NCBI RefSeq assembly: GCF_004364645.1
Contig: NZ_SOAW01000001.1
Coordinates: 992,001 to 1,056,000 of the forward strand
Origin: Naumannella halotolerans
Lineage (GTDB): Bacteria > Actinomycetota > Actinomycetes > Propionibacteriales > Propionibacteriaceae
DNA: 64,000 bases
Reading direction: 5' to 3'
Shown here: positions 9,744 to 34,330 of the stretch, piece after piece
Position numbering within the stretch: the first letter of the stretch is position 1
Layout: the number at the start of each line of letters is the position of its first letter
Notes under the pieces: generated by a model
Database searches by the model: none
What the model saw: only the letters and a program-made list of their open reading frames with translations
Told to the model about the DNA's origin: nothing
Position numbers and translations under genes: made by a program

Positions 9744-10310
9744 ATGTCGAACGCAGCTGGACAGGTCCGCAGGGCCGGCTCGATCACCGTCTTCGCCGGT
9801 GCCGCCGCCGGGATCGATGATCGTTGGGCGAAGACTGCCTACGAGCTGGGGCGGTTGATCGCCCAGGGGCCGGGGACGCTGGTCTTCGGGGCCGGCGGCA
9901 CCGGACTGATGGGTGCGGTCTCCGACGGCGCACTGGACCACGGCGGGCACGTCGTCGGTGTGATCCCGGAGTCCATGATCGAGAAGGAGTGGGCCCGGCC
10001 CGATCTGACCGAGCTGATCGTCACCGACGGGATGCACGAGCGGAAGAAGATCATGGCCTCGCGCGCCGACGGGTTCATCTGCCTGCCCGGTGGGGCAGGG
10101 ACCCTGGAGGAACTGGTCGAGATCTGGAGTTGGGTGAACCTCGGGTTCCTCGACAGCCGGATCGTGCTGCTCGACGACAACGGTTTCTGGCAGCCGCTGC
10201 TGGAGCTGGTGCAGCACTTCGAGCGTTCGGAGTTCCTCGGCGAACAGACCCGGCGACAGCTGCTGGTGGCCGAGGATCCGGCCGAGGCATTGGTCATGGC
10301 CCTGGGCTGA
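9744..10310 (+). CDS. LOG family / TIGR00730 Rossmann-fold protein
   Basis: A 188-aa protein of the lysine-decarboxylase-like fold, whose characterised members are nucleoside-5'-monophosphate phosphoribohydrolases (LOG, cytokinin-activating type). The defining motif PGGAGTLEE is at 115-123, and the MHERKK stretch (97-102) supplies the conserved arginine. The length is typical. Other signature residues are the early GAGGTGLMG (49-57) nucleotide-binding loop. It appears to be expressed from its own leaderless promoter and is convergent with fprA. In bacteria the role is probably purine-nucleotide salvage or housekeeping; cytokinin production should not be assumed. Confidence 0.9.
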   Translation: MSNAAGQVRRAGSITVFAGAAAGIDDRWAKTAYELGRLIAQGPGTLVFGAGGTGLMGAVSDGALDHGGHVVGVIPESMIEKEWARPDLTELIVTDGMHERKKIMASRADGFICLPGGAGTLEELVEIWSWVNLGFLDSRIVLLDDNGFWQPLLELVQHFERSEFLGEQTRRQLLVAEDPAEALVMALG

Positions 10311-22433: not shown

Positions 22434-22711
22434 GCGGTGGTCTCCTGGAGGATTCCCTGACCGGCCAAGGAACGCAGCGCGATCAGATAGGCATCATGGT
22501 GGGCGGGGTCCACCCCGGCCCTGGCCAAGGCGTCACCGACCGTTCCCGCCGTGCCCAGGTCCTCGACCACGGCAGCCAACTGCGGCGTCTTCAGGAAGCT
22601 GAGCTGGCGGGTGTGGAAGTCGTAGGCCAGGGCGCCGAACGGCTCGGGGCGCAAGGAGACCGACGGGCTGAGCCGCCAGTTCCGGTCGGTCAGGGTCGGG
22701 GCGGCCGTCAT
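22430..22711 (-). CDS. mftB: mycofactocin precursor recognition chaperone MftB
   Basis: A 93-aa PqqD-like RiPP recognition element that binds MftA and presents it to MftC. It opens with TDRNWRLSPSVSLRPEPFGALAYD in the pattern expected for MftB (positions 8-31, winged beta-strands), continues with the TRQLSFLK strand, and ends in predicted helices. The ATG overlaps the mftA stop as TGATG, and its own stop overlaps the mftC start as ATGA. This continuous overlap indicates stoichiometric, coupled translation of mftA-B-C. Confidence 0.92.
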   Translation of the reverse strand: MTAAPTLTDRNWRLSPSVSLRPEPFGALAYDFHTRQLSFLKTPQLAAVVEDLGTAGTVGDALARAGVDPAHHDAYLIALRSLAGQGILQETTA

Positions 22712-22878
22712 CAGTACACGCCGCACATACCGTCGATGGAGACCTCCTCGACCAAGGACTCCTCGGCGACCACCGGATCCGGTGCCTGCGGCTGCTCGGG
22801 AACATCGCCCGAGCGGTCCTGGCCGGCAGAGGTGGTCTGGAGTTCCTCGGCGGCAGCTGCGTTGGGGGTGACGGGCAT
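22711..22878 (-). CDS. mftA: mycofactocin precursor peptide MftA
   Basis: A 55-aa peptide ending in the diagnostic core IDGMCGVY, whose last Val-Tyr pair becomes the mycofactocin redox centre. The leader contains an acidic recognition stretch (VVAEESLVEEVS, about 36-47). The ATG at 22878 is preceded by a perfect AGGAGG six bases upstream; an earlier in-frame start at 22899 lacks this. At 55 aa it is much longer than the roughly 30-aa mycobacterial peptides because of an extra Ala/Gln/Pro-rich N-terminal half. It leads the mftA-B-C-E-F operon and is divergent from the methanol dehydrogenase gene. Confidence 0.96.
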   Translation of the reverse strand: MPVTPNAAAAEELQTTSAGQDRSGDVPEQPQAPDPVVAEESLVEEVSIDGMCGVY

Positions 22879-22929: not shown

Positions 22930-22935
22930 AACCTA
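22930..22935 (-). promoter_or_regulatory. candidate -10 hexamer of the mftA operon
   Basis: TAGGTT on the minus strand lies 51 bp before the mftA start and would give a leader of about 45 nt including the AGGAGG site. The hexamer is flanked by TGCC and GGCA, a small dyad (22926-22939). Confidence 0.4.
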
Positions 22936-22974: not shown

Positions 22975-23005
22975 GGTCGGCCTGTCCGGTCGGGCAGGAC
23001 CGACC
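22975..23005. promoter_or_regulatory. 31-bp inverted repeat between mftA and mdo
   Basis: GGTCGG (22975-22980) pairs with CCGACC (23000-23005), and CCTGTCC (22981-22987) with GGGCAGG (22992-22998), around a GGTC centre; one base is extra and one pair is T-G. It lies between the two divergent candidate promoters. Its central TCCGGTCGG is shared with the paired elements near mftD. It is a plausible operator for a common regulator. Confidence 0.5.
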
Positions 23006-23059: not shown

Positions 23060-23065
23060 TAGCGT
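23060..23065 (+). promoter_or_regulatory. candidate -10 hexamer of the methanol dehydrogenase operon
   Basis: TAGCGT lies 80 bp before the ATG at 23145 and would give a leader of about 72 nt ending in AAAGGAG. No clear -35 was found, which would fit activator-dependent transcription. Confidence 0.35.
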
Positions 23066-23144
23066 CGGCCGAAACCCGCCCCCGACACCGGTCGGTTCAT
23101 GATCGAGTCCTCGGGTCGGCGGCACCATCAAAGGAGATGTGCAG

Positions 23145-24437
23145 ATGCAAGTAGAAGAACTGCTGAAACCGTTCCCGATCAAGGAGTTCCACCCCTTCCC
23201 CCGGGCGCTCCTGGGACCCGGGTCGCACGAGATCATCGGTCCGGAGGCGAAGAAGCTGGGCTTCAAGAAGATCTTGGTGATGACCTCCGGGCTGCGCGGG
23301 ACCGGCATCGTGGAGAAGATCGTCGGTTCGTTGGAGTACCACGGCCTGGAGACCGTGCTGTACGACAAGGTCGAGTCCAATCCGAAGGACTACAACGCGA
23401 TGGACGGCGCCAAGCTGTACATGGAGAACGACTGCGATTCCTTCGTCTCCATCGGTGGCGGTTCCTCCCATGACGCCTGCAAGGGTGCGCGGATCGCGGT
23501 GGCCCACGACGGACGCAATGTGAACGAGTTCGAGGGATTCAACAAGAGCGAGAACCCGAAGAATCCGCCGCACATCGCCGTCTCCACCACCGCCGGCACC
23601 GGGTCGGAGACCTCCTGGGCCTATGTCATCACCGACACCACCACCGACCCGAGCAAACCGCACAAGTACGTGGCCTTCGACGACGCGGCGGTGGCGACCC
23701 TGGCGATCGACGACCCGGTGCTCTACTACGACTGTCCGCGGCATTTCACCGCCCAGTGCGGGTTCGATGTGCTGGCCCACGGCTCGGAGCCCTATGTGTC
23801 ACGGCTGAACTTCGAACCGTCGCTGGGCAATGCGATCCGGTCGATCGAGCTGACCTCCCAGAACCTGGTGAAGGCCACCTGGAACGGTTACGACCTGGCT
23901 GCGCGCGAGGGCATGATGTATGCCCAGTACATCGCGGCACAGGCGTTCAACTCCGGCGGTCTCGGGATCATCCACTCGATCAGTCACGCCACCAGCGCCT
24001 TCTTCGACACCCACCATGGTCTGAACAACGCGATCGCACTGCCGCGGGTCTGGGCATTCAACCTCTCCACCGAGTACCAGCGGTTCGCCAACATCGCCAA
24101 GGCGATGGGTGTCGACACCACTCACATGACGACCGTGCAGGCTGCCGACGCAGCGGTGGCGGCGGCGATCCGGCTGCTGCGCGACTGCGGCATCCCGGAG
24201 AAGATGACCGACATCACCAAGGAGACGCACGAGAAGAACCGCCTGGGTGAGGGCCCGACCGAGTACTACAAGGAACACCCCACGGTCAGCGGTGACCCGG
24301 AGACGATCGACAACGTGACCAACCACGTCCTCGGTGACTCCTGCACCGAGGCGAACCCGCGCGAGTGCACCTTCGAGACGGTACGCCCGGTCGTCGATCA
24401 CACCTACAACGGCGACCTCGACGATCTGCTGACCTGA
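23145..24437 (+). CDS. mdo: NDMA-dependent (mycofactocin-associated) methanol dehydrogenase
   Basis: A 430-aa type III iron-containing alcohol dehydrogenase closely matching the actinobacterial Mdo/Mno group, which oxidises methanol and other alcohols with tightly bound NAD(H) that is re-oxidised by mycofactocin (or the artificial acceptor NDMA). It starts QVEELLKPFPIKEFHPFPRA in the group's characteristic way, has the nucleotide loop GGGSSHDACKG (about 106-116), the STTAGTGSE stretch, and histidines of the metal site in the C-terminal half (IHSISHATSAFFDTHHG). The ATG at 23145 has AGGAG eight bases upstream; the GTG at 23139 is too close. It heads a four-gene operon and is divergent from mftA. 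Confidence 0.93.
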   Translation: MQVEELLKPFPIKEFHPFPRALLGPGSHEIIGPEAKKLGFKKILVMTSGLRGTGIVEKIVGSLEYHGLETVLYDKVESNPKDYNAMDGAKLYMENDCDSFVSIGGGSSHDACKGARIAVAHDGRNVNEFEGFNKSENPKNPPHIAVSTTAGTGSETSWAYVITDTTTDPSKPHKYVAFDDAAVATLAIDDPVLYYDCPRHFTAQCGFDVLAHGSEPYVSRLNFEPSLGNAIRSIELTSQNLVKATWNGYDLAAREGMMYAQYIAAQAFNSGGLGIIHSISHATSAFFDTHHGLNNAIALPRVWAFNLSTEYQRFANIAKAMGVDTTHMTTVQAADAAVAAAIRLLRDCGIPEKMTDITKETHEKNRLGEGPTEYYKEHPTVSGDPETIDNVTNHVLGDSCTEANPRECTFETVRPVVDHTYNGDLDDLLT

Positions 24438-25902: not shown

Positions 25903-27500
25903 GGATCGCGGATGAGGGCCGGCGGGACACCGGGCCCGCCGGTGGGGTCGAGTCGGACACCGACGAGCACTCCGACGCCGATCCGCAGACGATGGAGGTC
26001 TGCCTGCTGGCATTCGCCGAGGCCCTGCGACGCAACGGCATCCGGGTCAGTACCGCCGAGATCGTCGACGCCGCCGTGGCAGCCCGACAGCCGGGAATGG
26101 TACGCAGCCGAGAACGGCTGTCGGCCGCACTGCGGTCCTGCATCGTGACCCGGCCCCGGGATCTGTCGACCTTCGACGCGGTGTTCGCCCTCTTCTTCGC
26201 GCTGCGGCCGGTGGATCTGCCAACCGCCTCCGCCGGACAGGACGCGGAGGGACTGCTCGGGCCCGAGGTGGGCTCGAACGCCGAGATCGGCGACATGGCC
26301 CTGGTCGACGCCACGAAGGACGTGGGCCAGATCGACAGCGGGTCCTCGGCGGAGGCGGACATGCGGGAGTTCTTCGACCCCGAGTCGCTGAAGCAGGGAC
26401 GCAACCTCGACGAGGACGCAGACCTGGCCGATCTGGCGTCGATGTCGGACGAGATCTCCTTCTCACCGTCGGGTGCCGGATCACGAGGCCAGGGGATGAA
26501 GGTGCAGCTCGACGTCTCCCGTACCCGAGGTGACGAACCGGCCGGTGCGCTCACCCCGGCCACCGGTCAGGCGATCGACCTCGACCTCAGCGGCGAGGAG
26601 GAGAATCAACTGCTGGCCTGGCTCGGCGCCGGTGGCACTCCAGCGGGCCCCGACGACACCGATCCGGACCTGCTGAGTGCCCTGCTGCAGCGATTGCCCG
26701 AGCAACTGGCTGCGCACCTGCAACGGCTGATGAACCTGCGCCGGACCGTACCCGAGCTGGACGAGCCGTCGGTGCTGGACCGGATCTCACCGGCCGAGGA
26801 ACAGGAACTGGAGAACTCGTTGCGGCAGCTGGCGCACAGCCTGCGCGGCGGACTCAGCCAGAAGCTGCGGCCACACCCACGCGGCCGGGTCGCACCGGCC
26901 GCGACCGCCCGGCGCAGTATGCGGTTCGACGGTGTCCCCTTCCGGCCCGTCACCGTCTCCCGGGTACGGGAGAAGCCGAAGGTCGTGGTCCTGGCCGATG
27001 TGTCCCTCTCGGTCCGTGCGACGGCCCGATTCACCCTGCATGTGGTGCACGGGATGCAGGCGCGGTGGGGCAGGGTCCGATCGTTCGTCTTCGTCGACGA
27101 GGTGGCCGAGGTGACCGAGTTGTTCGCCGCCCACCCGATCGAACATGCCCTGGGCCTCACTTTCGGCGGCGACGTCCTCGACACCGAGGCCAACACCGAC
27201 TACGGCGCGGTGTTCACCCAGTTCGCCGACGACCATGCCGGTGCGATCGACCACCGGACCTCCCTGCTGGTCCTGGGCGATGCCCGCAGCAACGGCAAGG
27301 ATCCCGCCGTCGACACCTTCGCCGAGCTCGCCCGCGCCGCCAGGACGACCATCTGGTTGACGCCGGAACCCAGCTACTCCTGGGGCCTGGGTGCCTGCGC
27401 CCTGGCCGAGTACGCCGAGCACTGTGATCGGGTGGAGGTCGTCCGCGACCTCCGTGCGCTGGAACGTACCGCCGAGTCGATGAGTGAGGTCCGACCATGA
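25899..27500 (+). CDS. VWA-domain (CoxE-like) protein
   Basis: A 533-aa protein with a C-terminal von Willebrand factor A-type domain like that of CoxE, the partner of MoxR-type ATPases. The MIDAS-like sequence DVSLS (367-371) follows KVVVLA, and a second conserved acidic stretch SFVFVDEVAEVTELF follows. The N-terminal 340 residues are acidic and rich in Glu, Asp and Ala with several helical segments. It overlaps moxR by four bases, so the ATPase and VWA protein are made together. No signal peptide or membrane helix. Likely role: adaptor linking the ATPase to a dehydrogenase client. Confidence 0.88.
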   Translation: MRIADEGRRDTGPAGGVESDTDEHSDADPQTMEVCLLAFAEALRRNGIRVSTAEIVDAAVAARQPGMVRSRERLSAALRSCIVTRPRDLSTFDAVFALFFALRPVDLPTASAGQDAEGLLGPEVGSNAEIGDMALVDATKDVGQIDSGSSAEADMREFFDPESLKQGRNLDEDADLADLASMSDEISFSPSGAGSRGQGMKVQLDVSRTRGDEPAGALTPATGQAIDLDLSGEEENQLLAWLGAGGTPAGPDDTDPDLLSALLQRLPEQLAAHLQRLMNLRRTVPELDEPSVLDRISPAEEQELENSLRQLAHSLRGGLSQKLRPHPRGRVAPAATARRSMRFDGVPFRPVTVSRVREKPKVVVLADVSLSVRATARFTLHVVHGMQARWGRVRSFVFVDEVAEVTELFAAHPIEHALGLTFGGDVLDTEANTDYGAVFTQFADDHAGAIDHRTSLLVLGDARSNGKDPAVDTFAELARAARTTIWLTPEPSYSWGLGACALAEYAEHCDRVEVVRDLRALERTAESMSEVRP

Positions 27501-27573
27501 TCATCGAGGCGGCCGGCCGAGTGCCGGCGCCCCCCTCGCCGGCCGCCCGCGTAACGGCGGACGGGAGATGATC

Positions 27574-28479
27574 ATGGGACTCGAGCGGCTGGACCTGGAC
27601 ACACCGATCGACGCCTTCGCGCCCCTGGTCGACGGGGCCTATGTCGATCCGGTCGTGACCGTCCGCCGGGTGGGCCGCCGGGACCGGCGTGGGCGGGGTA
27701 TCCACACCACCAGCTTCGACCTGCACAACCGCGACGCACGGCTGGAGGTACGGCACTGCCTGCCGCCCGAGGAGCTCAGCAACACGCTCTCGGTCCGTCT
27801 GGCGAGCGAGCTGTTCGAGACCGGCTGGTTGCGTGGCTCGACGCTCTTCGAACGGATCTTCACCGGGATCGTCCGCTCGTTCGCCGAGGATCCGCTGGAC
27901 TCCTGGGAGCTGTTCTACCGCAACACCATGGCCGGCCGGCCGACTCCGCCCCCCGGCGGGGGAGAGGATGCCACCCTCGGCCCGGTCCATGATCATCTCC
28001 ACGCGCTGCTGACCGAGGACACGATCGGGTCGGTGCTCGATCTCGCGAGCTGTTTCGGCTTCCTGCCGCTGGAGCTCTCCGCACGGGGTTTCGACGTCAC
28101 CGCGACCGATGCCGATGCCGACATCGTCGAGCTGCTCGCCGCCGTCGCCGGCAGACTGCGCAGTGAGCTGCGGGTGGATCGCGTCGACGCCCGCCGGCTC
28201 CCGTACCGCGACAACTCTTTCGACACGGTGCTGGCCCTGCATCTGTTGGAACATCTGCCACCCGAGGATGGTGAATCGGTGGTGGAGCAGGTGATTCGCG
28301 TGGCCACCCGGCGGGCGATCATCGCGGTGCCGTTCGAGGACGAACCGAACGAATCCTACGGCCACCTACGCACGATCGCTCTGTCCGATCTGCACCGGTG
28401 GGGCGAACGGAGCGGGCTGCCGTACCACGCCTACGAACACCACGGGGGATGGTTGATCATCGACTGCGGCCGCAGCTGA
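27574..28479 (+). CDS. mftM: SAM-dependent methyltransferase, probable mycofactocin glucan methyltransferase MftM
   Basis: A 301-aa class I methyltransferase. The SAM-binding glycine motif is in VLDLASCFGFLPLEL (Ala-Ser-Cys replaces the usual GxGxG start), motif II follows as DVTATDADADIV, and a later motif is FDTVLALHLLEHLPPEDG. In mycobacteria, MftM, which 2-O-methylates the second glucose of mycofactocin, is encoded beside the MadRS-type genes and the methanol dehydrogenase, and this gene has the same neighbourhood. The ATG at 27574 is preferred because GGGAG lies six bases before it. Its stop is nine bases from that of the convergent response-regulator gene. Confidence 0.8.
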   Translation: MGLERLDLDTPIDAFAPLVDGAYVDPVVTVRRVGRRDRRGRGIHTTSFDLHNRDARLEVRHCLPPEELSNTLSVRLASELFETGWLRGSTLFERIFTGIVRSFAEDPLDSWELFYRNTMAGRPTPPPGGGEDATLGPVHDHLHALLTEDTIGSVLDLASCFGFLPLELSARGFDVTATDADADIVELLAAVAGRLRSELRVDRVDARRLPYRDNSFDTVLALHLLEHLPPEDGESVVEQVIRVATRRAIIAVPFEDEPNESYGHLRTIALSDLHRWGERSGLPYHAYEHHGGWLIIDCGRS

Positions 28480-28488
28480 TCGCGTGGT

Positions 28489-29205
28489 TCAGAGCAGACC
28501 CGCCTTCGTCGCCTCGTAGACCGCTTCGGCCCGCCCGGAGGCGCCGAGCTTGCGCAGGATGTTGCCCACATGGAACTTCGCCGTGGTCTCGGAGATGAAC
28601 AGCTCGGCCCCGATCTCCTTGTTCGACATCCCGCCGGCGAGCAGCCGCAGCACCTCCTCCTCCCGCGAGGTCAACCGCTTGGTCTCCACCTCCGGAGCAG
28701 CGTTCAGACCCCGCACCATGGCCGCGGCCGAGCGGGCATCGAAGGCGCTGCCACCTCGCGCCACATCGCGGATGGCGCGGAGCAGACTCGTGGTGTCGAC
28801 ATCCTTCACCACATAACCCCGGGCACCGGCCCGGATGGCACGCAGGATCAGCGCCTCGTCCAGGAAAGTGGTCAACACCAGCACCGCGACCCCGGGATGC
28901 TGCGAGGTCAACTTCTCGCAGAGCTCCAGGCCCTCGGTGTCGGAGGAACTGGAGAGCTTCAGATCCAGCAGCACCACATCGGGGGCGGTCCGCTGCACCA
29001 TGATCATCGCCTCGTCGGCGGTCGACGCCTCGGCCACCACCGCGAAGTCCTGCTCCCGTTCGAGGATCGAACGCAGCCCCTGGCGGACGATGGCATGATC
29101 ATCGACCAACATGATCCCGACCGCCTCGGATTCGGCACGCACCTCCTTGCCGGCCGCCGACCGGTCGGCAGCACCCGTCCCTCGGGGAACCTCGTGAACG
29201 GTCAT
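28489..29205 (-). CDS. madR: NarL/FixJ-type response regulator, MadR-like
   Basis: A 238-aa response regulator: receiver domain about 30-150 with phosphoacceptor D81 (VVLLDLKL), acidic pair D35-D36 and K in VVKDVD, then a LuxR-type HTH in about 170-235 (LTSREEEVLRLLAGGMSNKEIG). The N-terminal 27 residues are polar and unstructured. It is encoded after, and overlaps by ATGA, the sensor kinase gene. The position beside iron alcohol dehydrogenase, methanol dehydrogenase and mftM matches the MadS/MadR pair that controls alcohol oxidation in mycobacteria. It is the best candidate to bind the paired elements near 33.0 and 34.3 kb. Confidence 0.85.
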   Translation of the reverse strand: MTVHEVPRGTGAADRSAAGKEVRAESEAVGIMLVDDHAIVRQGLRSILEREQDFAVVAEASTADEAMIMVQRTAPDVVLLDLKLSSSSDTEGLELCEKLTSQHPGVAVLVLTTFLDEALILRAIRAGARGYVVKDVDTTSLLRAIRDVARGGSAFDARSAAAMVRGLNAAPEVETKRLTSREEEVLRLLAGGMSNKEIGAELFISETTAKFHVGNILRKLGASGRAEAVYEATKAGLL

Positions 29206-30593
29206 GATCGACTCCTGTCTGCAGGCTGATGCGGACCGACGAGTCCGGAGATCACTCCGGGGCCGACCCGCAGGGGAAGGGGGAGATGCATCTCCAACCG
29301 AGGACCGCCGATCCTGGACTGGCTGAACCGGACCTCGCCGCCGAGTTCGGCCACCCGGCTCTCGATGTTCGCCAGACCGCGGTGTCGCCCGTCGACCACC
29401 GACTCCCGGGAGCGCGCGAGGGCCTCGGTCAGGTCGGCGGCCCTGCCCTTGCCGTCGTCGGCGACGGCGACCAACAGGTCCTGGGGTCCGTAGCGGAGTC
29501 GGATCACCGCCCGGGTCGCCTCGGCATGGGCGCTGACGTTGAACAGGGCCTCACCGACGGCCCTGGCCAGCTCGTGACTGGCATCGGCCGGGATCGGGCA
29601 GGGGGTGCCGACCATCCGGACCCGGACGTCCAGACCGGGTCGGTGATGGGCCGCCACCTCGTTCAGCAGATCCGGCAGAGAGGCGACGGTCTCGTGGTGG
29701 GGTTGATGCAGGGCATAGATGGCGCGTCGCAGCTGCTCGACCGCCTGTCCGCACAGCTGTTTGGCCGACTCCAGACTGCGGGCGGCCAGGCCGGGATCGA
29801 AATCGGGATCGCTCAGTGAGCCCCGGACCAGTTCCAGTGACATCCCTGCCGACAGCACGACCTGGGTCACGCTGTCGTGCAGTTCGCGGGCGATCCGGTG
29901 CCGCTCGGCGTCGAGCAACTCCCGCTGTTGGGCCAGCGTCAGCCGCTCCTGGGCCTGATTCAGCTCGGCGGTCCGTTCGGCCAGTTCGCGGGTCCGCAGA
30001 TCGGCCTGGGCATACAGCTCCCGTGCCTGCCGGTGCATCTGCTGACCGGCCTGATACTGCTGGGAGGTGTGCAGGCTGACCGCGGCGAGGTTGGCCAGGA
30101 TGCCGAGGACCGACAGATCAGCCGGTTCGGACAGGTCGGCCGGACTGGGCAGCGCCAGCAGATATCCCACCTCGGTGTTGCCCAGCGTCATCGGGGTGCC
30201 GATCCAGCCATCGGAGAGGTCGGGTCGGCCGCGGCGGAGGGTCGCGGCCAGCCGGTCGATCGGTACGGGCAGGCCCTCGGTGTCGGTACGTACCTGCAAC
30301 TCCGCGTCGATGATCATCATCCGCGGCAGCGCACCCGGCAGGGCACCGTCGACCAGACCGAGCAGCACCCAATCGGCCTGCAGGTGATGGGCCGCGGTAC
30401 GGGCGATCTCCTCCAGCACCCCACGGGGGCCCTCGACGGTCCGGACCAGCGCCCGGGAGATCGCGTCCATCGCCTCGACGGTGCGTTCCAGCCGTTCGTC
30501 GGAGCGGCGGTAGGCACGGTAGAAGGAGCGCTTGCCCGACCGCACACCGGTCAGTGCGGCCACATCGGGGCCGAGGGGTTCGGCAGTGGTCAT
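29202..30593 (-). CDS. madS: sensor histidine kinase, MadS-like
   Basis: A 463-aa soluble NarX/DesK-class kinase without transmembrane helices. An N-terminal GAF-like domain (about 45-180) is followed by a coiled coil (about 185-230), the HisKA_3 dimerisation helix with phospho-acceptor H239 (RHRIARELHDSVTQ), and a HATPase domain with VADDGKG. A cytoplasmic signal, perhaps an alcohol, aldehyde or redox state, is implied. I prefer the ATG at 30593; TTG at 30605 and a GTG are alternatives. It lies about 36-50 bp after the iron alcohol dehydrogenase gene and so ends the SDR-ADH-madS-madR operon together with madR. Confidence 0.85.
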   Translation of the reverse strand: MTTAEPLGPDVAALTGVRSGKRSFYRAYRRSDERLERTVEAMDAISRALVRTVEGPRGVLEEIARTAAHHLQADWVLLGLVDGALPGALPRMMIIDAELQVRTDTEGLPVPIDRLAATLRRGRPDLSDGWIGTPMTLGNTEVGYLLALPSPADLSEPADLSVLGILANLAAVSLHTSQQYQAGQQMHRQARELYAQADLRTRELAERTAELNQAQERLTLAQQRELLDAERHRIARELHDSVTQVVLSAGMSLELVRGSLSDPDFDPGLAARSLESAKQLCGQAVEQLRRAIYALHQPHHETVASLPDLLNEVAAHHRPGLDVRVRMVGTPCPIPADASHELARAVGEALFNVSAHAEATRAVIRLRYGPQDLLVAVADDGKGRAADLTEALARSRESVVDGRHRGLANIESRVAELGGEVRFSQSRIGGPRLEMHLPLPLRVGPGVISGLVGPHQPADRSRS

Positions 30594-30641
30594 CACCTCA
30601 CCCAATTCCCTGCCGGTGCGAGTGTCGGGTCAGGTCGGTGC

Positions 30642-31919
30642 TCACAGCGCCGCTCGGAACAGTGATTCGATCTCGGCAGCCGAGGAGGAACGGGGATTGG
30701 TGGTCAGGCAGGCATCGTCGAGGGTCCCTTGGGCCATCTCCGGCAGTTGCTCCTCGGTCACCCCGAGCGCGCGCAGTCCCTTCGGCACACCGACCTCGTC
30801 GGCCAGCGCGCGTACCCGTTCGGCCAGCAGTTCGGCTGCCTCCAGACCGGGCATGCCGTGGGCCGGGAGTCCGGCAGCCAGCGCCAGATCGACGAACCGC
30901 TCGGGGGCGGCGCGGGCATTGAAACGGATCACATGGGGCAGCAGCACCCCGTTGATCAGCCCGTGCGGGGCATCCAGCAGCCCACCCACCTGGTGCGACA
31001 TGGCATGGGTGGCGCCGAGAATCGCGTTGGTGAAGGCGAGTCCGGCGTTCAGGGAGGCCTGGGCCATCTGCTGCCGGGCCTGCTCGGCCTGTCGGCTCAC
31101 CATCTGTTGCAGGTTCCCGGTGACCAGCCGTACCGCGGCCAGGGCGTGCATATCGGTCAGCGGGTTGTGCGCCAGGGAGACGAAGGCCTCCACCCCGTGG
31201 GTGAGGGCATCCAGACCGGTCGAGGCTCCCAGGTCGTCGGGCATCGTGGACAACAGCCGCGGGTCGGTGATCGAGACGTCGGGTACCAGTGCCCGACCGA
31301 TCATGGTCACCTTCACCGAACGCGCGGTATCGGTGACGATGCAGAACTGGGACACATCGGCACCCGTCCCGGAGGTGGTGGGGATCATCACCGTGGGTGG
31401 GATCGGGTTGCGTACCTTGTCAAGTCCGGCGAAGGAGAGGATGTCGCCGTCGTTGCTGCTGAGGACGGCGACTCCCTTGGCTGCGTCGATGCAGGACCCG
31501 CCGCCCAGGGCGACGATCACATCCGATCCGGTCGCGCAGTAGTACTCGTGGGCGGCGCGAATCTCGTGGTCCTTGGGATTCGGGCTCACCTGCGACCAGA
31601 CACTCGGGCGCAGACCGGCCTCGCGCAGATGCATGATCAACTCGTCCAGCCAGCCGGCCTCGATGATCCCGGGATCGGTGACCACCAGCGGGCGCTGACC
31701 GCCCAGCCGGGCCGTGGCATGTCCGGCTTCGGCGAGCGAGTCGTGGCCGAACACGACCTCCGGGGCCTGGAACTTCAGCAGGCCGACCTCATCGCGTTCG
31801 GGGATCGGCGCACCGTGGGCGATCGGGGTCGTTCGTAGGGTCGCGGTCGGTACGGTCGGGTCGTCCGGGGATCGCCGGGCGGTCTCGACCGACCGGGCCT
31901 TCGTCATTGAAGCGCCCAT
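30642..31919 (-). CDS. iron-containing alcohol dehydrogenase (1,3-propanediol dehydrogenase-like)
   Basis: A 425-aa type III alcohol dehydrogenase distinct from Mdo. Cofactor-binding ALGGGSCIDAAKG and the TTSGTGADVSQF stretch precede the metal-site region TGLDALTHGVEAF and ATHAMSHQVGGLLDAPHG. The 40-residue N-terminal extension is polar. AGGAGG lies six bases before the ATG. It lies 68 bp downstream of the SDR gene and upstream of madS. A homologous dehydrogenase sits in the equivalent place beside the mycobacterial madRS genes. Substrate is probably a primary alcohol or diol; whether it too depends on mycofactocin is unknown. Confidence 0.9.
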   Translation of the reverse strand: MGASMTKARSVETARRSPDDPTVPTATLRTTPIAHGAPIPERDEVGLLKFQAPEVVFGHDSLAEAGHATARLGGQRPLVVTDPGIIEAGWLDELIMHLREAGLRPSVWSQVSPNPKDHEIRAAHEYYCATGSDVIVALGGGSCIDAAKGVAVLSSNDGDILSFAGLDKVRNPIPPTVMIPTTSGTGADVSQFCIVTDTARSVKVTMIGRALVPDVSITDPRLLSTMPDDLGASTGLDALTHGVEAFVSLAHNPLTDMHALAAVRLVTGNLQQMVSRQAEQARQQMAQASLNAGLAFTNAILGATHAMSHQVGGLLDAPHGLINGVLLPHVIRFNARAAPERFVDLALAAGLPAHGMPGLEAAELLAERVRALADEVGVPKGLRALGVTEEQLPEMAQGTLDDACLTTNPRSSSAAEIESLFRAAL

Positions 31920-31987: not shown

Positions 31988-32794
31988 TCAGCTGAAACCA
32001 CCGTCGGCGTGGACGATTCCGCCGTTCAGTGCCCGGCCGGCCGGGGACACGGCCAACCCGATCACCGCAGCCAGGTCCTCGGGGGAGAGGGTCGTCCGGA
32101 TCAACTGGGACTGAGCCAGGTCGTCGATCCCGGTGCCGTAGATGTCGGCGGTGGCCGACAACATGTCGGTCCGGGTCGAACCGGGGGAGATCGCGGTGGC
32201 CGTCACTCCGGTGCCGACCAGATCGGCGGCCAGGGCACGGACGATTCCAACCACCGCATGTTTGGCCACCACATAGGCCGAGAGGCCGAACAGTCCCCGG
32301 TCGCCGGCGGCGGAGGCGATCGCGACGAACCTGGCGCCGGAGGGGTCCGGGCTGCGCAGCAGGTGCGGCACGGTCGCCACAGCGGTGTTCCACACACCAC
32401 CGGCGTCGATGTCGATGAGTGCCCGCGCCTCCTCGGCCGGGGTCTCCCACAGCGGTGAGCCACCGGAGATGACCGCTGCCGCGGCGACCACGGCATCCAG
32501 CCTTCCCCAGCGTTCCAGCGCGGTCCCGGCGGCGGCGCGGAGCGCATCGAGATCACGGACATCGGCCCGTACCGCGACCACGGCATCGGGGTACGGCGCG
32601 ACCACCGCCTCGAGTTGTTCGGCACCGGCCAGCGGGTGCGCCACCCCGGGCAGGTCATGTACGCCGCCGAGACAGGCGTCCACCGCGACCACCCGCAGGC
32701 CGTCGGCGACCAGGCGTCGCACCGCGGCCGCACCGATCCCGCGGGCGGCACCGGTCACCAGGGCCACCCGTGCCGGATCCGGTTGGCGGTTCAC
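31988..32794 (-). CDS. mycofactocin-coupled SDR family oxidoreductase
   Basis: A 268-aa short-chain dehydrogenase/reductase. The cofactor loop is TGAARGIG (14-21), and the active site has Ser (IASAAGDRG) with YVVAK. An insertion of about 35 residues between beta-2 and the acidic loop (ACLGGVHDLPGVAHPLAG onward, about 39-70) is the mark of SDRs that hold NAD(H) non-exchangeably and pass electrons to mycofactocin. GTG start at 32794. It is the first gene of a leftward operon with the iron ADH and MadS/MadR, and has a promoter element like that of mftD. Substrate unknown; relatives act on terpene or other secondary alcohols. Confidence 0.87.
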   Translation of the reverse strand: MNRQPDPARVALVTGAARGIGAAAVRRLVADGLRVVAVDACLGGVHDLPGVAHPLAGAEQLEAVVAPYPDAVVAVRADVRDLDALRAAAGTALERWGRLDAVVAAAAVISGGSPLWETPAEEARALIDIDAGGVWNTAVATVPHLLRSPDPSGARFVAIASAAGDRGLFGLSAYVVAKHAVVGIVRALAADLVGTGVTATAISPGSTRTDMLSATADIYGTGIDDLAQSQLIRTTLSPEDLAAVIGLAVSPAGRALNGGIVHADGGFS

Positions 32795-32982
32795 CGGTCT
32801 CCGTACCGACAGCGACGTCCGCTGGGGGAGACGACAGGGTCGGGCACGGTGGCGCCGATCAGGGGGAATGGCCGGGCCGGGATGGGCGCCGGGTCAACGA
32901 GGGGCGTGCCGGATTCGGTCCCTGCTCCGGGACCGGCCTGTGGGTACGCCACTGTGCGACCTCGCTTCCGTCGGTGATCCGA

Positions 32983-33030
32983 ACGTTAACCCGGGCCACC
33001 GTCACGGCGACCCCTCCGACCGGACGGTCT
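32983..33030 (-). promoter_or_regulatory. promoter of the SDR operon with palindromic activator-like element
   Basis: Reading leftward, an imperfect palindrome (33012-33027, CCCTCCGACCGGACGG on the plus strand) is followed, 22 bases beyond its extended edge at 33011, by a TAACGT -10 (32983-32988). The -35 region between them is poor. The arrangement is the same, to the base, as in front of mftD. It predicts a leader of about 180 nt to the SDR start. Confidence 0.6.
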
Positions 33031-33053: not shown

Positions 33054-34250
33054 TCAGTCGGTCGCCAGTGCACGGCTGGGATGTGCGCCGAGGGTACGGG
33101 TGAAGTCCTCGGGAACGAGGATGTGCTCGCGGTTCAGTTCCTGTACCGAGCCGACGCCCAGGGCGAGCAGGGTCGAATCGATCCCGCCGCGGAGGATGTC
33201 GAGCACGTTCTCCACCCCGGCCTGACCGTTGGCGGCCAGGCCCCACAGATAGGCACGGCCGATCATCACCGCCTTGGCGCCCAGGGCGAGGGCCTTGACC
33301 ACGTCGTTGCCGCGGCGTACCCCGCCGTCCATCACGACCTCGATCTGCTCGCCGACCGCGTCGACGACCGGTCCGAGCATCCGGATCGCACCCGGCGTGC
33401 CGTCGAGATTGTTGCCACCGTGGTTGGACACCGAGAGGGCACTCACTCCGGCGTCGACGGCCCGCTGGGCGTCGTCGATCCGGGAGACTCCCTTCAACAT
33501 GAACGGTCCGCCCCATTCCCGGACCATCCAGGCGATGTCGTCCCAGGTCGGGGGAGGCGACTGCATCCATTCGAAGTAGGCACCGAAGAAGGTCGGCGCG
33601 GGACCGTCCTGGGTCAGGTTCGGTGTGGTCAGGTCCGGCAGGGACCGGGACCTGGCGAAGTTCAGCAACCAACGCGGTTTGGTGATCACCTCGGGTGCGA
33701 ACTGCGCCATCGCCTTCAGGTCCAGCTTCTCCGGGATCGCCGGACTGCCCCAGTCACGACCGTAGGAGAACGACCAGTCCAAGGTGGCGATCAGTCCGAC
33801 GGCGCCAGCCCGGCGGGCCCGTTCCATCCGCGCGGCCATCACGTCCCGGCCGCCCATCCAGTACATCTGGTAGAAGGTCTGCGGGTTGGCGGCGGTGACC
33901 TCCTCGACCGGTTTGGAGGCAAACGAGCTCAGGCCGATCGCCGTACCGCGGGCGGCTGCGGCCCGGGCGACGGCCACCTCACCGTCGGGGTGGACGGCCT
34001 GCACGCCGGTGGGGGAGATGAGCACCGGCAGCGCAATGTCCTGGCCCATCACCCGGGTACCGAGGTCACGTTCTGCGTGGTTGCCGGCGACATGCGGGGC
34101 GAACTGCAGTTCGGAGAAGGCGTTGATGTTGTCGGCATAGCTGAGGCCTTTCTCCGACCCGGCCAGCAGTGCGGAGTAGACCGATCCGGGGAGTCGCTTC
34201 TTCGCCCGCCGTTGGGCTTCTGCCACCGTCTCCATCCATGCGTTCGCCAC
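33054..34250 (-). CDS. mftD: pre-mycofactocin synthase MftD
   Basis: A 398-aa FMN-dependent alpha-hydroxy-acid-dehydrogenase-fold enzyme. In the pathway MftD oxidatively deaminates AHDP to give the alpha-keto amide of premycofactocin. The flavin barrel signature SNHGGNNLDG (275-284) contains catalytic H277, and K253 (MLKG) would contact flavin N1; the later MDGGVRRGNDVVKAL and VMIGRAYLWGL bind the FMN phosphate. The start is a GTG. It is detached from the mftA-F operon by 10 kb and instead has its own regulated promoter upstream of the SDR operon. Lactate-dehydrogenase function is the alternative reading, but length and context favour MftD. Confidence 0.9.
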   Translation of the reverse strand: MANAWMETVAEAQRRAKKRLPGSVYSALLAGSEKGLSYADNINAFSELQFAPHVAGNHAERDLGTRVMGQDIALPVLISPTGVQAVHPDGEVAVARAAAARGTAIGLSSFASKPVEEVTAANPQTFYQMYWMGGRDVMAARMERARRAGAVGLIATLDWSFSYGRDWGSPAIPEKLDLKAMAQFAPEVITKPRWLLNFARSRSLPDLTTPNLTQDGPAPTFFGAYFEWMQSPPPTWDDIAWMVREWGGPFMLKGVSRIDDAQRAVDAGVSALSVSNHGGNNLDGTPGAIRMLGPVVDAVGEQIEVVMDGGVRRGNDVVKALALGAKAVMIGRAYLWGLAANGQAGVENVLDILRGGIDSTLLALGVGSVQELNREHILVPEDFTRTLGAHPSRALATD

Positions 34251-34282: not shown

Positions 34283-34330
34283 AGACTAGGACCGCTGTCA
34301 CAGCGGCGGACCCCTCCGACCGGAGGGTCC
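34283..34330 (-). promoter_or_regulatory. promoter of mftD with palindromic activator-like element
   Basis: A palindrome, CCCTCCG-AC-CGGAGGG (34312-34327), is followed on the minus strand, 22 bases beyond its extended edge at 34311, by the -10 hexamer TAGTCT (34283-34288). The element sits at about -35 to -55, the usual place for an activator contacting RNA polymerase. A second copy with the same spacing lies in front of the SDR operon. Confidence 0.62.

Follow-up and report, generated by a model that had tools for sequence, protein, structure and literature searches.

Putative MadR boxes at mycofactocin promoters of Naumannella halotolerans and its relatives

Two palindromes upstream of mycofactocin genes in the window (the whole stretch of 64,000 nucleotides analysed here) are, judging from sequence comparison, very probably boxes of MadR, the MnoR-type response regulator of the same cluster, and would serve as activating elements centred near -43.5. 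A third and stronger copy lies between mftA and mdo. For this organism we infer the binding, the phosphorylation, the activation and the alcohol signal. The arrangement is most likely a switch of a kind already described, with more target genes in this case. Literature searches, with coverage mostly outside subscription journals, turned up no title on MadR boxes at mftD or other mft promoters.

Gene names in the cluster derive from NCBIfam models, with mftD, the mycofactocin-coupled SDR, MadR and mdo passing their cut-offs and MadS and FeADH falling below theirs. The genes are the following.

22711-22878, minus strand: mftA precursor peptide, 55 amino acids, ending in IDGMCGVY, which we take to be the MftA C-terminus
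23139-24437, plus strand: mdo, NDMA-dependent methanol dehydrogenase (TIGR04266, over cut-off)
28489-29205, minus strand: MadR response regulator, receiver and LuxR/GerE HTH domains by Pfam (NF047785, 339 bits, cut-off 300)
29202-30605, minus strand: MadS-like sensor histidine kinase, HisKA_3 and HATPase_c domains (NF047786, 477 bits, cut-off 500)
30642-31919, minus strand: FeADH, iron-containing alcohol dehydrogenase homologue (best match ErcA-like, 465 bits, cut-off 550)
31988-32794, minus strand: mycofactocin-coupled SDR oxidoreductase (NF040491 and TIGR04504, both over cut-off)
33054-34250, minus strand: mftD, pre-mycofactocin synthase, apart from mftABC (TIGR03966, 678.7 bits, cut-off 470.85)

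A regulator of the family proposed to read the box is therefore encoded in the cluster itself (MadR, with NF047785 over the cut-off), and the MadR HTH is nearly invariant among 16 aligned proteins. The ATG at 23145 is a possible alternative start of mdo. A methyltransferase-domain protein at 27484-28479 is matched in 72 of the 80 MadR loci from relatives that are described below.

The promoters of mftD and of the SDR genes share the same set of elements, all on the minus strand.

34311-34328, minus strand: putative MadR box before mftD, ACCCTCCGGTCGGAGGGG, with its core at 34315-34324
34283-34288, minus strand: -10-like hexamer TAGTCT of mftD, in register with the TAGCGTCG of relatives
33011-33028, minus strand: putative MadR box before the SDR-FeADH-madS-madR genes, ACCGTCCGGTCGGAGGGG
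32983-32988, minus strand: -10-like hexamer TAACGT of the SDR genes

In each promoter 22 nucleotides separate the palindrome from the hexamer (34310-34289 for mftD, 33010-32989 for the SDR), and the core YCCGNNCGGR stands 26 nucleotides from the -10-like hexamer. The first-pass annotation had described both palindromes, the single mismatch between them, the 22-base gaps and the hexamers TAGTCT and TAACGT, and all of these are where it placed them. It had also called the -35 boxes poor, and the positions at a 17-nucleotide spacing indeed read GTCCGC and GTCGCC, poor against the reference hexamer TTGACA. The centre of the box falls 31.5 nucleotides upstream of the first base of the -10, at about -43.5, and thus over the poor -35. 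A palindrome centred over a poor -35 is the layout of class II activation. The earlier description of the pair was right about positions; it overlooked the strongest copy, at 22981-22998, and its two promoters are probably not independent.

On its own sequence alone the mftD/SDR pair is weak, and it is comparison with relatives that rescues the claim. The 16-mer with up to three mismatches occurs five times in the window against 4.23 expected, and with up to two mismatches ten times in the 3.47-Mb genome against seven for the reversed control; since these counts sit at chance level, the loose matches carry no meaning and such matching was dropped. The exact and one-mismatch copies account for two of the three genome sites with at most one mismatch, lie 1300 bp apart and precede two genes of one pathway. 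Spacing is more selective. A TANNNT exactly 26 nucleotides downstream follows only two of the 72 oriented YCCGNNCGGR cores in the window, both of them the present elements, where the mean per spacing is 0.08. Across the genome CCNYCCGNNCGGRNRG has 26 oriented matches (17 sites), and these two alone have TANNNT at 26 nucleotides. One further genome site, C1:2081015, has TANNNT at 25 nucleotides and was set aside; it lies between genes that, from their translations, we take to be secY-like and adk-like.

The mftD and SDR promoter regions align over ~160 nucleotides with a score of 39.5, above both the 99th percentile (23.5) and the maximum (34) of about 600 random 200-nucleotide pairs drawn from the window. 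Restricted to the sequence downstream of the box, the alignment scores 18.0, a value reached by 3 of 1974 random pairs. From this likeness the two are probably one duplicated promoter, derived from that of mftD, and the independent evidence that they provide is therefore halved. An additional reading frame falls between the SDR promoter and the SDR gene.

32791-32952, minus strand: 53-codon ORF without a Pfam match

It starts where the mftD start appears to have been duplicated, shares 4 nucleotides with the start of the SDR gene, and may be either a by-product of the promoter duplication or a leader peptide.

The strongest candidate box occupies the region between mftA on the minus strand and mdo on the plus strand.

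22981-22998, no strand assigned: strongest putative MadR box, CCTGTCCGGTCGGGCAGG, between mftA and mdo
23060-23065, plus strand: -10-like hexamer TAGCGT of mdo, 65 nucleotides from the box core
22930-22935, minus strand: -10-like hexamer TAGGTT of the mft operon, 49 nucleotides from the box core

This is the sole perfect match in the 3.47-Mb genome to CCTNYCCGNNCGGRNAGG, the consensus of the FeADH and mdo boxes of relatives. With a weight matrix trained on 23 distinct FeADH sites (threshold score 10) it scores 24.5, against a maximum of 18.8 in 200 shuffles. The boxes at 34311-34328 and 33011-33028 match CCTNYCCGNNCGGRNAGG in the core and differ in the outer arms, and on the same FeADH-trained matrix the two score 5.2 and 7.3, within the range of shuffled sequence. 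The weaker form found at mftD-type promoters is CCCNTCCGNNCGGRNRG(T/G). Another window match, at 10082-10099 (score 17.9), was taken as chance; it lies in sequence that, as we read it, encodes a PGGxGTxEE motif, presumably that of the LOG family.

An alignment of 16 MadR proteins was used to scan for relatives, and the best 80 of 378 loci (L030-L109) were taken. In these 80, 42 of 43 mdo genes have a match scoring at least 10 upstream, where mdo comprises matches with at least 74% identity, SDR those with at least 45%, and split or second matches per locus are counted apart. The same score is reached upstream of 51 of 81 FeADH genes, a count that is not independent of the training of the matrix and that may be low because the ORF used for projection has ~46 extra N-terminal residues (in the window FeADH ORF the family match begins at residue 47). 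No match at this threshold was found upstream of madS (0/84), madR (0/82), mftC (0/53), the SDR (0/18) or mftD directly behind mftC (0/33), and control genes reach it rarely: AAA 2/71, madC 1/66, the methyltransferase 3/72, mftE 1/29 and mftF 2/24. At a score of at least 15 there are 120 matches in the 1,545 kb of the 80 loci, and the ~60 kb that precede FeADH, mdo or mftD contain 95 of them.

The distance from box to -10-like hexamer in relatives is not uniform. Values cluster near 26-27, 42-50, 61-67 and 88-90 nucleotides, and isolated values, one or two each, occur at 19, 74, 77 and 84. FeADH and mdo boxes mostly have distances other than 26 or no clear -10, and many FeADH boxes have none; among 22 listed boxes, six show a distance of 65-67 nucleotides for mdo. 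At the FeADH and mdo promoters a weaker second site possibly lies between the far box and the -10.

At mftD the spacing is rigid. In 12 of these 80 loci (the best of 378) the gene directly behind mftD encodes an SDR or FeADH, and ten of the 12 carry a box before mftD (L031, L032, L035, L037, L038, L045, L049, L054, L057 and L066). The core lies 26 nucleotides from TANNNT in 9 of the 12 and 27 nucleotides from it in L057; both window promoters hold to the same fixed distance of 26. Eight of the ten boxes have a perfect core and were found before spacing was considered; those of L045 and L049 have one core mismatch and were seen by eye, then recovered by a search that required the spacing. In an alignment of 11 rows of equal length, including the two from the window, the box averages 74% pairwise identity and the spacer 39%, and the -10 and its flank are also conserved. 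This retention of the 26-nucleotide distance in 9 of 12 relatives while the spacer sequence changes supports the earlier proposal of an activator-bound promoter layout. The two remaining mftD-headed loci, L076 and L081 from Flexivirga, have no box before mftD even with two core mismatches allowed. By another rule (no mftC nearby) 14 mftD genes stand alone, of which four reach a matrix score of 10 and five more score 7-10. The mftD genes of three genomes with other surroundings (G001, G009 and G067) give best scores of 3.8, 6.7 and 3.5 in stretches of ~4 kb. In Mycolicibacterium litorale (L106) a perfect box, CCTACCCGATCGGGTAGG, lies ~315 nucleotides upstream of mftD and is also listed upstream of mdo; it is probably one site between divergent genes.

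The box also follows the distribution of its proposed regulator. For 293 genomes of the order, the MadR set and the box set were taken as the same genomes (the handles agree where listed). MadR is present in 17 and a perfect box in 94, with the box in 16 of the 17 genomes that have MadR and in 78 of the 276 that lack it (Fisher 6e-8, kinship ignored). The reversed control matches 2 of 17 and about 43 of 276, respectively. The single genome of the order with MadR and without a perfect box is G172. Where box places are listed, all 11 MadR genomes have a box at most 8 kb from madR, and 12 of their 21 boxes fall within this distance. In a genome of the same genus as the window (G001), mftD is present and neither MadR nor a perfect box was found. 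Because 78 genomes without MadR hold a perfect match, the motif alone is not diagnostic. The naming of MadR as the candidate binder nevertheless gains from these comparisons, since the box tracks MadR across genomes and precedes mdo, FeADH and mftD, and rarely other cluster genes.

The closest described system is MnoSR of Mycolicibacterium smegmatis (MSMEG_6236/6238; Dubey and Jain 2019 via PMC11303327), likewise an alcohol-linked two-component system. According to the available text of PMC11303327, MnoR binds, in EMSA and MST, a palindrome that is present in a single copy 137 bp upstream of mno (MSMEG_6242), MnoSR acts positively on Mno and also regulates MSMEG_6239 (1,3-propanediol dehydrogenase), and M. 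smegmatis oligonucleotides with 2-4 mismatches show weak or no MnoR binding. As far as that text describes the system, it resembles the window in combining, in one stretch, a methanol dehydrogenase gene with one for a 1,3-propanediol dehydrogenase, and in having one perfect palindrome ahead of the former. We take MadSR and MnoSR to be one system on account of their gene order and target, with MadR probably the counterpart of MnoR; the comparison of the box with the published palindrome covered where it lies (137 bp upstream of mno), how many copies there are and the order of the genes. Both the activator reading and the MadR reading of the first-pass annotation are in keeping with this resemblance of cluster layout and box to the MnoSR system, as far as the available text of PMC11303327 goes. 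The window differs in having additional, weaker boxes, at 26 nucleotides, ahead of the separate mftD and of the SDR-madSR genes, and in the place of its main box, which separates mdo from the mft biosynthetic operon, whereas in M. smegmatis a single operon is directly regulated according to the authors in the same available text.

Loci from a second genus complete the comparison. MadR occurs in 46 of 297 genomes of the genus reached through G532, which appears to be Mycobacterium on the basis of 82-83% MadR identity to Mycolicibacterium sphagni. Each of 20 such loci examined (of 46) contains exactly one box in ~11 kb, upstream of FeADH in 17 and of mdo in 3. An mdo homologue (65-76% identity) is present in 17 of the 20, in the order mdo-AAA-VWA-FeADH-madS-madR, and in L218 the box begins ~140 nucleotides before mdo.

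MadR might instead bind and repress, or the boxes might be low-affinity relics of the promoter duplication with little effect. The weak matrix scores of the mftD and SDR boxes would agree with this, the duplication itself fits relics, and repressor sites too can overlap a -35. It is nonetheless unlikely: weak -35 boxes together with a centre near -43.5 are as expected of an activator, the mftD boxes of different genera agree in sequence and spacing despite diverged spacers, and MnoSR acts positively on mno in the available text of PMC11303327. A different regulator encoded outside the cluster could also read the same palindrome, and the excess of perfect motifs in MadR-less genomes over the reversed control (78 against about 43 of 276) means that not all of these matches need be chance. 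This alternative is very improbable given that all 11 MadR genomes with listed places have a box no more than 8 kb from madR and that strong matches in the 80 MadR loci concentrate upstream of mdo, FeADH and mftD.

A final alternative is that the palindrome serves as operator for MftR, a repressor of the TetR type that acts on mycofactocin genes. The available text of PMC8728441 reports a 27-bp palindrome of the form T-N2-GGCA-N5-TGCC-N2-A, located 5' of mftA in M. smegmatis, as the binding site of MftR. That operator is thus also a palindrome controlling mycofactocin biosynthesis genes, but per the same text it has another sequence, unlike the box, and belongs to another protein family (a TetR repressor) than the MadR box. 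An MftR gene does stand divergent beside mftD in the two Flexivirga loci, with scores of 247.9 (L076) and 252.2 bits (L081) against the family cut-off of 224.9.

L076:764-1366: MftR gene beside mftD, Flexivirga
L081:5416-6018: MftR gene beside mftD, Flexivirga

These are the very two mftD-headed loci without a box. An MftR operator requires an encoded MftR, and the present genome has no protein over the cut-off (best 46 bits against 224.9; none at E <= 1e-20); tblastn likewise finds none in the window or in the ten box loci, with some loci of the set of 80 truncated at contig ends. With its protein missing, this explanation is largely refuted and its probability is close to negligible. The reading as boxes of the activator MadR is the one followed below.

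The distribution of MftR bears on how control of the pathway has changed. By tblastn an MftR match is present in 24 of the 80 loci (some ending at contig ends). The 12 mftD-headed loci divide cleanly, ten having the box and no MftR in the available stretch and two having MftR divergent from mftD and no box. Among 27 MadR genomes tested, 18 contain MftR over the cut-off, comprising 10 of 10 Mycobacterium-like genomes and 8 of 17 from the order; it is missing in the other 9 of these 17, all of which have mftC (17/17). Those 17 genomes contain 19 copies of mftC. Eleven have no MftR within 3 kb, and nine of these have MadR within 10 kb, against three of the eight copies with MftR (Fisher 0.07, a trend only). 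Clusters of mft genes near madSR are often without MftR. The split of the mftD-headed loci and the mftC trend hint at a regulator swap without proving it, the loci being mutually related. In this lineage and several Nocardioidaceae, we slightly favour the view that mycofactocin biosynthesis has passed, via one box family, from the acyl-CoA-responsive repressor MftR to the alcohol-linked activator MadSR.

In the proposed mechanism, MadS would sense an alcohol-linked signal and phosphorylate MadR, and a MadR dimer would bind the palindrome at about -43.5, over the poor -35. Bound MadR would then recruit RNA polymerase to the TAGNNT -10 by class II activation, and the stronger box in the mftA-mdo interval would act in both directions from a more distant upstream position. 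Binding at the mftD and SDR boxes may be weak or need cooperation, given their scores of 5.2 and 7.3. The result would be co-induction of cofactor making (the mftA operon and mftD), of the enzymes that use the cofactor (mdo, SDR and FeADH) and of madSR itself. NarL/LuxR-type response regulators act at class II activator promoters, where a GerE-type HTH regulator likewise meets a palindrome beside or over the -35; the MadR box differs from these in its own consensus and in the actinobacterial TANNNT -10.

For the MadR/MnoR family across Actinomycetes, these observations define a binding motif and a promoter geometry that is rigid, and the regulon of mycofactocin-dependent alcohol oxidation therefore becomes readable from genomes. 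If the swap is true, MadSR would command the supply of the cofactor, the dehydrogenases that use it and its own synthesis. This suggests that cofactor synthesis has passed from the control of one regulator to that of another, unrelated one, a shift relevant to when mycofactocin is made by bacteria.
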